Position numbers and translations under genes: made by a program
Shown here: positions 1,340 to 19,051 of the stretch, one piece after another
Layout: every line of letters begins with the position of its first letter
Numbering within the stretch: position 1 is the stretch's first letter
The notes under the pieces: generated by a model
The model's database searches: none
Seen by the model: only the letters and a program-made list of their open reading frames with translations
What the model was told of the DNA's origin: nothing
IMG/VR virus record: IMGVR_UViG_3300032086_000811
Coordinates: 1 to 20,890 of that record
DNA length: 20,890 nucleotides
DNA from: a virus
Direction: 5' to 3' (one strand)

Positions 1340-1368
1340 AGTATAACAGATTTTGGTTTTAGGCTAAA
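1340..1368 (-). promoter_or_regulatory. Minus-strand sigma70-like promoter with extended -10
   Basis: Read on the minus strand, TGT-TATACT forms an extended -10 (hexamer 1340-1345). A weak -35, TTTAGC, lies at 1363-1368 with a 17 base spacer. It faces the 151 aa gene. It stands back to back with the plus-strand promoter at 1406-1434, making a divergent promoter pair inside the late region. The -10 is good and the -35 poor. Confidence 0.45.
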
Positions 1369-1405
1369 AAAAGGTTTTTAGTATTGTATGCTAATTTATA
1401 CAAAT

Positions 1406-1434
1406 TTGCAAATGTTTATACATTGTGTTATAAT
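1406..1434 (+). promoter_or_regulatory. Plus-strand promoter of the reversed island gene
   Basis: A -35 TTGCAA (1406-1411), a 17 base spacer and an extended -10 TGT-TATAAT (hexamer 1429-1434) are all visible. The predicted start is near 1441. This is the best-matched promoter in the window. It would also be recognised by host sigma70 in a lysogen or early in infection. It rules out the upstream in-frame ATG at 1388 as the real start of the gene. Confidence 0.65.
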
Positions 1435-1447
1435 AGACACTGGTCGA

Positions 1448-1471
1448 GATTTTCAAGAAGCCACGAAAATC
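1448..1471 (+). promoter_or_regulatory. 5' leader hairpin of the plus-strand gene
   Basis: GATTTTC at 1448-1454 pairs perfectly with GAAAATC at 1465-1471 around a 10 base loop. It starts a few bases after the predicted transcription start and ends before the ribosome binding site at 1487-1494. A second pairing of GAAG with CTTC in the same leader is possible. A protective or regulatory role is inferred. Confidence 0.35.
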
Positions 1472-1498
1472 GCCTTCGTAGTAAAAAGAGGAGGCATC

Positions 1499-1834
1499 AT
1501 GAAGAAGCCAACACTACAAAAATGCTACGAGAAAATGCAAATGATCAAGAACAATCCTGATCAGCTTGTTTTGATGGCTGCTAAAGAAAACGGCAAACCA
1601 TGTTTGGTTTTAGCTTTGGCAGACGATAAGACATTGCAAACTGGGGGACAAACTCCTGTTGCAATCATCTTAGATCAAGGCAGGATTGATAATCTTGTTC
1701 CTGACTACAATGCTTCTAAGGCTATTGCTCCCATTATAAATGGGGCTGAAGCCAAAGAGCATAGAACTTCTCCAAAGGAGTTCGATGGTGAGGATGAGAT
1801 CATTGATCGGCATTTTGCTCAAGCCGACTTCTAA
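1499..1834 (+). CDS. Moron-like orphan gene on the opposite strand, 111 aa, unknown function
   Basis: The start chosen is the ATG at 1499, preceded by AGAGGAGG at 1487-1494, not the in-frame ATG at 1388 that precedes the promoter. The product begins MKKPTLQKCYEKMQMIKNNP. It is soluble and mixed alpha/beta, with a hydrophobic core strand LVLALADD near residues 36-43 and a charged, acidic C-terminus (GEDEIIDRHFAQADF). There is no signal peptide, membrane helix or recognised catalytic motif. It is the only complete plus-strand gene in the window. It has its own promoter, leader hairpin and terminator and sits between the capsid gene and the next late genes, the classic layout of a moron. It could be a superinfection, host-modifying or regulatory protein. 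Function is unknown. Confidence 0.8.
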   Translation: MKKPTLQKCYEKMQMIKNNPDQLVLMAAKENGKPCLVLALADDKTLQTGGQTPVAIILDQGRIDNLVPDYNASKAIAPIINGAEAKEHRTSPKEFDGEDEIIDRHFAQADF

Positions 1835-1843
1835 GAGGTCGTT

Positions 1844-1876
1844 AAAAAAGAAGGGGAGCATAAGCTCCCCTTTTTA
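1844..1876. terminator. Bidirectional Rho-independent terminator
   Basis: AAGGGGAGC (1851-1859) pairs over nine bases with GCTCCCCTT (1864-1872) around an ATAA loop. It is followed by a T tract on the plus strand (1871-1875). An A-rich run at 1844-1849 gives a T tract on the minus strand. It therefore ends the plus-strand gene and also the converging capsid-operon transcript, 17 bases beyond the capsid stop codon. Confidence 0.85.
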
Positions 1877-11363: not shown

Positions 11364-11582
11364 TTATTGTAGCGGTAAAACTCCTGATATCAAAGCTATA
11401 AAGAGAGCACCAATAAACCCAAAAACACCAAATGTTGCCATTTTTATTGTGTTATTTATGTTCGATATTTCTTGTTTAATTTCTGAGGTTTCAGAAAAAA
11501 TTGTTTTCCAGCGTTCTTCGCATTTAACCTCATGAGCATGAAGGTTTGCTGCTACTTGTTCTGTGGTTGCTTTAGTTGCCAT
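11364..11582 (-). CDS. XhlA-like small membrane protein, 72 aa
   Basis: The N-terminal 45 residues form an amphipathic helix (HEVKCEERWKTIFSETSEIK near 17-36), followed by a single transmembrane segment (about 48-69) at the C-terminus. This is the layout of haemolysin XhlA-type proteins, which associate with holins and endolysins in several phages. The ATG has no clear ribosome site. A TATAAT (TGC-TATAAT on the minus strand) lies about ten bases upstream and could give a near-leaderless transcript, though such matches occur by chance in AT-rich DNA. Its position just before the M15 endolysin supports a lysis role. Confidence 0.65.
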   Translation of the reverse strand: MATKATTEQVAANLHAHEVKCEERWKTIFSETSEIKQEISNINNTIKMATFGVFGFIGALFIALISGVLPLQ

Positions 11583-11603
11583 GATGCAACAATTATAGCA
11601 AAA

Positions 11604-11708
11604 TTATTTTTTTATTTTTTTCTTAGCTTTTTCTATCCACTCAGGCTTCCATCTTTCAATAAGAAAAAACCCTGCAAGTATTCCTAATACTAGAATTAAC
11701 CATTCCAT
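11604..11708 (-). CDS. Micro-gene, 34 aa single-pass membrane protein in lysis cassette
   Basis: A short frame starts at an ATG at 11708 preceded by AAGGA with normal spacing. It encodes MEWLILVLGILAGFFLIERW, followed by KPEWIEKA and a lysine-rich end (KKKIKK). The first 18 residues form one hydrophobic helix and the tail is amphipathic and basic, like small holins or lysis-accessory peptides. It lies between the fibre-associated gene and the XhlA-like gene, on the same strand, with gaps of 9 and 21 bases. The good ribosome site, the composition and the tight fit argue that it is real. The function is inferred. Confidence 0.6.
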   Translation of the reverse strand: MEWLILVLGILAGFFLIERWKPEWIEKAKKKIKK

Positions 11709-11717
11709 AATAATTCC

Positions 11718-12287
11718 TTAGTTCGAAGGTGCTGGAGGAAATTCAGGAAGAGGTCTTGTTGGTGGCTCTCCTGAATAAACATATAAAGCCTGTAGTTCAG
11801 GTACTGTTGTACAAGCGTTAATCATAGCAACTTGACTTTCGCAAGTTGTCCTAATTGATTCTCTCCAAGTATCCCAATCGGCAGGTATATCTACACCATT
11901 TTCAGATTTTCTAACAACATACCAATCGCTAGGTTGTAATAAACCGTATGCTTGTTGTTTTTGGGTTGTAACCGCATTTGATTTTAATCCTGGTGTTACC
12001 GTACCGTCAGGGTTAGTTGTATCGTCTAAATTTTTAGGGGTAGCTGGTCCGTAACTTGCGGTTACTACTCCGTTTGCATATACAAAAGATTGTTGAGTAT
12101 TTATGTAATATGCTGGATCTTGGTAATTGCTGTTATCTTCAACTACTTCGTAAATGCTTATAGCTTCTAGCTCACTCGCTGACCAAAGCATAAATATATT
12201 GGAAGGATAACTGACATCCCCAATAGTAATAGCTTTAGGGTTTTGGTAAACCTGAGTTACTTGATTGTTTTCTACTAATGCCCACAT
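11718..12287 (-). CDS. Tail-associated protein, 189 aa, possible fibre assembly factor
   Basis: The protein opens MWALVENNQVTQVYQNPKAI. An N-terminal segment of the style "ALVENNxVxxVYxNP" followed by a small beta domain (to about residue 75) is common in phage proteins encoded after tail fibres. The second half is helical (QKQQAYGLLQPSDWYVVRKS, then DTWRESIRTTCESQVAMINA) and ends in a Pro-rich tail (PPTRPLPEFPPAPSN). The SDWYVVRK...PADWDTWR block is typical of DUF4376/tail-fibre-assembly style proteins, where it follows the receptor-binding gene. The gene follows three large fibre genes, so a fibre chaperone or tip protein is plausible. A ribosome site (AGGAA) precedes the ATG. Confidence 0.65.
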   Translation of the reverse strand: MWALVENNQVTQVYQNPKAITIGDVSYPSNIFMLWSASELEAISIYEVVEDNSNYQDPAYYINTQQSFVYANGVVTASYGPATPKNLDDTTNPDGTVTPGLKSNAVTTQKQQAYGLLQPSDWYVVRKSENGVDIPADWDTWRESIRTTCESQVAMINACTTVPELQALYVYSGEPPTRPLPEFPPAPSN

Positions 12288-18253: not shown

Positions 18254-19051
18254 TTAACCTGCCTCTTTGAATCCTAGACCTTGAACTTTGCGGTGAAGAA
18301 TGTTGTGCACTTTCCAGTAAGGGAACTTCTCAAAACCAGCGTGGGAGTTTTGAATTTGTTTGGCAATTCGTCTTGCACCTAGACCTCTTTTCTTACATTT
18401 TTCTATGGTTCTAAGGACTGCTTGCTCTTCGGGAATCTCTTCTAGTTTCCAACGAGTCTTTCTGCCGTGCTTGACGGGTACTTTTTTGTAGCCAAAGGGT
18501 GCAGAGCCACAAATAGAATAAGACTTAGATGCCCAATCGAGTTTGCCATCGTTGAATCTGTCGACAATGTTACCGTGTTCAATCTCAGCAACTGCGGAGA
18601 GAACCATTAGCATAATCTTGTTAGCCATTTCGTTCATGTCAAACTTGGCATGGAGACCTTTCTCTTTCTTAGACTTTGGATAGGCAATTGGGATATCACC
18701 AAACTGTTGACAGAAATACATGGTGACACCAATGTCCTCTAAGATAGGAATGATCTCCAATAAATCTTTAGAGTTTCTTGATAGACGGTCAAGTCTTGTG
18801 GTAATAACAATGTCGTGTTCTTCTAGCGTGTCGGTCATTTCTCTTGAGCCTTCTCGCTGTTGAATAGACATAGTGCCTGATTCGCCAGCATCAATAAAGA
18901 AGTGATCGACTTCTCGATTGAACTTGTCTCTGACAAATTCTTTGATCAGTTTCTTTTGAGTTTCTAATGAGCAACCGTTGGTAACTTGCTCGTAAGTAGA
19001 TACACGGACATAGCCGTAAATATTATTGATTTGATTTTTAGGTGTTATCAT
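18254..19051 (-). CDS. Serine site-specific recombinase (resolvase/invertase type), 265 aa
   Basis: The enzyme cuts and rejoins DNA through a serine nucleophile. The catalytic domain (about 10-160) has YGYVRVSTYEQ with S18 as the expected nucleophile, a TTRLDRLSRN block around residues 75-84, and the long E helix (MLMVLSAVAEIEHGNIVDRF). The second part includes an APFGYKKVP recombinase-domain motif and a helix-turn-helix-like end (GLGARRIAKQI). It is intermediate in size: longer than small resolvases and shorter than large serine integrases. Its AGGAGG ribosome site lies inside the preceding 31-codon gene. It could act as an integrase, an invertase of tail genes or a resolvase. No inverted repeats for inversion were spotted. 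Confidence 0.95.
   Translation of the reverse strand: MITPKNQINNIYGYVRVSTYEQVTNGCSLETQKKLIKEFVRDKFNREVDHFFIDAGESGTMSIQQREGSREMTDTLEEHDIVITTRLDRLSRNSKDLLEIIPILEDIGVTMYFCQQFGDIPIAYPKSKKEKGLHAKFDMNEMANKIMLMVLSAVAEIEHGNIVDRFNDGKLDWASKSYSICGSAPFGYKKVPVKHGRKTRWKLEEIPEEQAVLRTIEKCKKRGLGARRIAKQIQNSHAGFEKFPYWKVHNILHRKVQGLGFKEAG

Follow-up and report, generated by a model that had tools for sequence, protein, structure and literature searches.

A Plus-Strand Gene Lies within the Minus-Strand Late Operon

The window analyzed here, a 20,890-nucleotide (20.9-kb) stretch of DNA, comes from an uncultivated virus and represents a fragment of its genome; the minus strand carries the late genes, namely capsid (Mu gpT-like), portal (SU10-like), terminase, and tail genes. 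Its capsid protein is 60–63% identical to those of phage DSL-LC04, phage 023Pt_psg01, and Pelagibacter phage HTVC023P. The major capsid protein gene (Mu gpT/PHROG major head; 1893–2810, minus) is followed in the late operon by a cement/decoration-type gene (801–1256, minus), the position of which matches that of the annotated cement protein of DSL-LC04. Between the two lies a gene of opposite strand, as the initial annotation had described, which we refer to with its signals as the island. This plus-strand gene (1499–1834; ATG at 1499, stop at 1834) encodes a 111-residue protein (12.3 kDa, pI 5.3) of a new family. Its frame is open upstream to 1388, which would give 148 residues if used whole, but the 111-residue start is preferred because homologues begin there.

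The annotated promoter, ribosome site, and leader hairpin all held up on analysis. A sigma70-type promoter with an extended -10, TGTTATAAT, spans 1405–1434 on the plus strand and can be read as TTTGCA-18-TATAAT or TTGCAA-17-TATAAT with TG; the extended -10 (1426–1434) is near consensus. When the 110 bp preceding the gene were shuffled 500 times with dinucleotides preserved, 0.2% of the shuffles equalled its score, as did 0.9% of 117 control genes, and the DNA upstream of a 51%-identical homologue in locus L096 resembles the window promoter region. The gene thereby carries its own predicted promoter. The leader (1448–1495) comprises a 7-bp hairpin (1448–1471, z about -2) and a weak stem (1472–1495) that includes the Shine-Dalgarno sequence GAGGAGG (1488–1494). 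An Rfam scan of the island gave matches only far below the gathering score. Divergent promoter matches within 1383–1434 share the palindromic TTTGCAAA as their -35 on both strands, and this palindrome may represent an operator or a bidirectional promoter.

Downstream of the gene, a predicted bidirectional terminator (1851–1872) with a T-run on both sides is common to the island and capsid genes.

The Capsid-Cement Junction Is Empty in Most Relatives

We classified this junction in 69 capsid relatives. In 57 of them the gap holds no gene and measures 115–217 bp (median 151), and in 12 it is longer, nearly always with other cargo, including HNH-type and acetyltransferase-like proteins (judged by eye). 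A search of 35 whole records, among them 30 relatives with capsid proteins 56–84% identical, found copies of the island gene only in the five records fetched as carriers. The possibility, raised with the initial annotation, that the gene would occupy the same place in all relatives was not borne out, since it is found at several junctions and is absent from most relatives.

The empty gaps also define the ends of the inserted piece. In 49 of the 57, the same kind of terminator follows the capsid gene, and the late promoter and leader come next. Thus the terminator at 1851–1872, annotated as the island's own, does have T-runs on both sides but belongs to the ancestral late operon. The minus-strand promoter thought to restart the late genes beyond the island is likewise present and ancestral: its -10 (TATACT, 1340–1345, minus) is that of the conserved cement-gene late promoter, is found in island-free relatives, and stands 8 nt from the cement leader, as in L187 and L195. 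A second minus-strand promoter match occurs at 1383–1412; the promoter conserved in relatives is that at 1340–1345. Because the terminator and the late promoter with its leader flank the island just as they occur in island-free relatives, the inserted piece is best delimited as about 1371–1850, within the originally proposed 1340–1876, and it borrows, as judged from this comparison, the capsid terminator.

The junction is a hot spot with varied cargo (L014, L016–L018, L020, L023, L025, L082, L091, L093, L187–L190), including reversed genes in L014 and L091 as well as HNH-like genes; in L187–L190, phages with the nuclease context described below, it holds a short co-directional ORF. The cement-gene leader RNA (1277–1331, minus) consists of a stem and a pseudoknot (CCGAG/CTCGG) and is similar to Mu-gpT-DE RNA. 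Pseudoknotted leaders occur at the same place in the window, L008, L009, L022, L187, L191, L195, and others, and the two sides of the pseudoknot co-vary (CTAGG/CCTAG, CCGAG/CTCGG, CCAAG/CTTGG, CCTAG/CTAGG) in 20 of the 21 leaders examined; in two of these the pairing spans only 4 bases. Rfam does not recognize this form, and it finds Mu-gpT-DE RNA (RF03012) at the same place in L012 and L083; the pseudoknotted leader looks like a variant of that RNA.

The Island Gene Encodes a Conserved Protein with a Predicted New Fold

The family comprises about 60 IMG/VR contigs, a number at which scans with growing alignments saturate. Because members are 38–100% identical across these contigs, with dN/dS of 0.05–0.36 (nine pairs; 0.25 within the window type), the gene codes for a real protein. 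Among 39 aligned members 18 positions are invariant, with a core of TLQK.YEK ... P.AI.LDQ. Searches of Pfam, PHROGs, NCBIfam, and PDB sequences matched nothing, so the earlier statement that the protein lacks a recognized homologue stands for curated databases and fails for viral contigs. No carrier was found among isolated phages, plasmids, or GTDB genomes; the GTDB scan was seed-based (84,980 bacterial and archaeal species genomes), and a very divergent member could be missed because these scans start from short conserved peptides. HTVC023P gp45 was considered as a homologue and rejected as a chance match (36 columns, 13% probability).

Structure prediction, which had been put forward with the initial annotation, gave a confident AlphaFold model (pLDDT 91) when built on 22 sequences, and this was used in place of an earlier, poor model on 4 sequences (pLDDT 63.5). 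The predicted order of elements is alpha-beta-beta-beta-alpha-alpha. Foldseek returned nothing convincing (best E 0.74 in PDB and 0.071 in BFVD) and listed T7 Gp1.2 at E 1.5. The family, and the fold as modeled, appear to be new, as the model resembles no solved or viral fold. Family members are acidic (pI 4.5–5.6) with GRAVY of -0.2 to -0.7, a composition that marks the protein as soluble, and the alpha/beta model likewise points away from membrane-type superinfection exclusion.

The Unit Moves as a Whole between Junctions

Family genes occupy six contexts. In four of them the gene is reversed: the capsid/cement junction (A); a site flanked on one side by a staphylococcal-nuclease-like gene and on the other by surface-protein, CsgF/CsgG-like, or other genes (B); a site between homologues of window genes 11364–11582 and 11718–12287 in the sibling phage L097 (C); and a site near a small-terminase-like gene (D). 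In the remaining two the gene is co-directional, lying either in a curli cluster, with FecR on one side and the CHASE2 adenylate cyclase on the other (E), or in a small-gene cluster with MazG upstream of the small terminase (F), the latter arrangement being that of two subfamilies. At these other junctions the unit is found in phages whose capsid proteins are 63–76% identical.

Most subfamilies have predicted promoters of their own; for the reversed subfamilies L006 and L104 and for some co-directional ones, the promoter scores do not exceed those of shuffled sequence. All reversed forms have a terminator and most have a 5' hairpin, at the same place as the window leader hairpin; no comparable hairpin or terminator was found in the co-directional forms. 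In the reversed B subfamily a palindrome, AAGTGTT-N6-AACACTT, lies at the -35 and is a candidate operator, seen by eye.

Direct evidence of movement comes from L097 (context C) and L098 (context B), in which the gene DNA is 98.8% identical. Identity stops about 170 bp upstream of the gene and 50–75 bp past its stop, the terminator lies inside the shared unit, and the flanks are unrelated, with nothing beyond chance outside the unit. In the pairs L101/L104 and L104/L102 identity breaks at one unit end only. L097 is a sibling of the window phage (neighboring proteins 64–92% identical), and its insertion corresponds to window 11583–11717, a gap that is empty in the window and contains an extended -10, TGCTATAAT, at 11592–11600 (minus); both insertion gaps therefore lie at promoter-like sites of late genes. 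Deep forks of the family and capsid trees are weakly supported, and for this reason no claim of transfer is built on trees. Taken from these alignments, the unit moves whole, to several positions and in both orientations. Because it is absent from close relatives, has its own predicted promoter, and relocates as one piece, the island qualifies as a moron in the original sense, defined as a complete transcription unit added to a phage genome (definition as quoted in PMC6316719). The moron-like character first proposed for the cassette, on an opposite strand and present or absent at the junction, is in this respect supported.

A Recurrent Promoter Element Points to an Early Class

The element AAGTGTTGAC is kept in the promoters of the B and E subfamilies, whose proteins are about 45% identical. 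In carrier contigs it occurs almost only at family promoters, and it is present in 1 of 15 other records. Nine contigs match AAGTGTTGACWT: seven have a single copy and two have a second one, which precedes a cluster of small genes of unknown function. The larger product of a reversed gene pair at the capsid-cement junction of L014 (capsid 84% identical) is 37% identical over 93 residues to a protein whose gene lies immediately upstream of the second AAGTGTTGAC site in contig G028. AAGTGTTGACAT is also seen before a small unknown-gene cluster in L184 (around 2210–2220, minus) and L185 (around 1166–1177).

Because AAGTGTTGACAT precedes another small-gene cluster as well, the promoter of the island family may represent a type of early phage promoter. 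Together with the F context, the second AAGTGTTGAC site, which precedes a further small-gene cluster, suggests that the family genes belong to an early class, and we infer early expression from these arrangements. In the lytic HTVC023P-type phage HTVC027P, the one member profiled, RNA-seq places the early genes in a scattered, mosaic-like pattern, all of them of unknown function (PMC12753301).

A Mobile Moron with a Proposed Host-Directed Early Role

We propose that the island is a mobile one-gene moron with a host-directed early role, a reading to which we assign a probability of roughly 0.6. The unit was placed in the gap that separates the capsid terminator from the cement promoter in a marine phage of the HTVC023P/DSL-LC04 type. 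Host RNA polymerase would transcribe it on the strand opposite to the late genes, starting at the unit's own sigma70-type promoter, while the terminator common to the island and capsid genes would keep the convergent transcripts apart. With its own promoter, opposite strand, and terminator, the gene would be independent of the late programme, and since it has its own promoter on the opposite strand, expression may occur early or throughout infection, whatever that programme does. The small acidic alpha/beta product would then bind a host target early in lytic infection, in takeover or in counter-defence. This host-directed function is the least certain part of the explanation: taken alone, binding of a host protein, the likeliest role judging by the gene's location and general properties, is a tentative assignment that we would hold at somewhat under even odds.

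An unlikely alternative, in line with the exclusion or defence role suggested in the initial annotation, is a lysogenic moron, expressed from a prophage to exclude or defend against other phages. Prophage accessory loci typically combine a promoter of their own with an antisense position in a late operon (PMC7067206), and the window contains a serine recombinase gene (resolvase domain, 265 residues, PHROG integrase/invertase; 18254–19051, minus), so a temperate life is possible for this phage. However, no carrier turned up in the seed-based GTDB scan of 84,980 species genomes, bacterial and archaeal, and a cultured relative, HTVC027P, is lytic according to its description in PMC12753301. In PADLOC the window protein was unmatched and one of four members matched at E 0.036, which is chance level, and in several relatives the gene has MazG and further small genes as neighbors.

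A late or virion-associated accessory protein, acting in assembly, lysis, or the envelope with an incidental promoter, would explain why the gene has virion genes around it in the window and, in many relatives, adjoins tail, lysis, or curli genes. We regard this as improbable, because the gene is on the opposite strand with terminators in four contexts, is absent from most relatives, and has a MazG small-gene context in two subfamilies. Neither virion nor lysis proteins matched it by sequence or fold, and a structural counterpart, which would have spoken against the moron proposal, was thus not found.

We give little credence to the view that the gene is part of a curli (type VIII secretion) accessory module, for example its regulator, moved out in the window lineage. 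More than 20 contigs do have the gene between FecR and the CHASE2 adenylate cyclase, and CsgF/CsgG-like genes adjoin some reversed relatives, but the linkage is not constant: contexts A, C, and D and the MazG type have no CsgF, CsgG, or FecR nearby. In the window, L096, L097, L118–L125, and L129 there are no curli genes near the island, from which the gene appears to be kept without the module. Such clusters were already known in HTVC023P-type pelagiphages (PMC9599517). That of L162 (3955–9137) comprises CsgF-like, CsgG, curlin-like, FecR, and CHASE2-cyclase genes; similar loci are found in L099, L109, L112, L126–L128, and L130–L148, and the curli-cluster phages have a window-like terminase and portal. 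Finally, a selfish insertion of no benefit, kept only by recombination at late-gene junctions, would suit the many unrelated cargoes at the junction but is very improbable given purifying selection (dN/dS 0.05–0.36), an invariant core in 39 members, and a unit without a mobility enzyme.

Returning to the mobile moron, its fullest form is a conjecture that we judge plausible but a little short of an even chance: a mobile cassette for early host takeover or counter-defence in HTVC023P-like phages, among which are the most abundant SAR11 phages known, with a new fold and an almost gene-specific promoter element (AAGTGTTGAC in two subfamilies), repeatedly parked backwards in late operons. If so, the cassette keeps its early schedule wherever it lands. 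The island is a clean case from nature in which a moron can be seen to relocate as an intact transcription unit. The phages that carry it are related to the most abundant SAR11 phages known, and its family of about 60 contigs with no known fold is a defined target for studying phage effects on hosts.

Comparison with Known Systems

The curli (T8SS) cluster of HTVC023P-type pelagiphages (PMC9599517) houses one subfamily, between FecR and the adenylate cyclase, and differs from the window, where the island stands apart from curli genes. STMMW_20121 of prophage ST64B is likewise antisense to lytic genes with its own promoter, but it belongs to a temperate prophage and its expression is documented by RNA-seq (PMC7067206), whereas the island is known here from sequence. 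In the lytic phage SPP1, the segment of ORFs 8–10 also introduces moron genes, flanked by transcription signals, among the late virion genes and interrupts their order, although it consists of three genes and a replication origin (PMC6316719). The island also resembles the morons of lambdoid phages (Juhala et al. 2000; PMC6316719), which are likewise complete units with their own promoters between virion genes, absent in relatives, and replaced by unrelated cargo at the same joint. The island differs from these in its new protein family, in occurring in phages related to a lytic group, in the terminator it borrows from the capsid operon, and in the presence of the unit at several junctions in both orientations. 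The moron is a known kind of element; the novelty here lies in the protein family and in showing that the unit moves.
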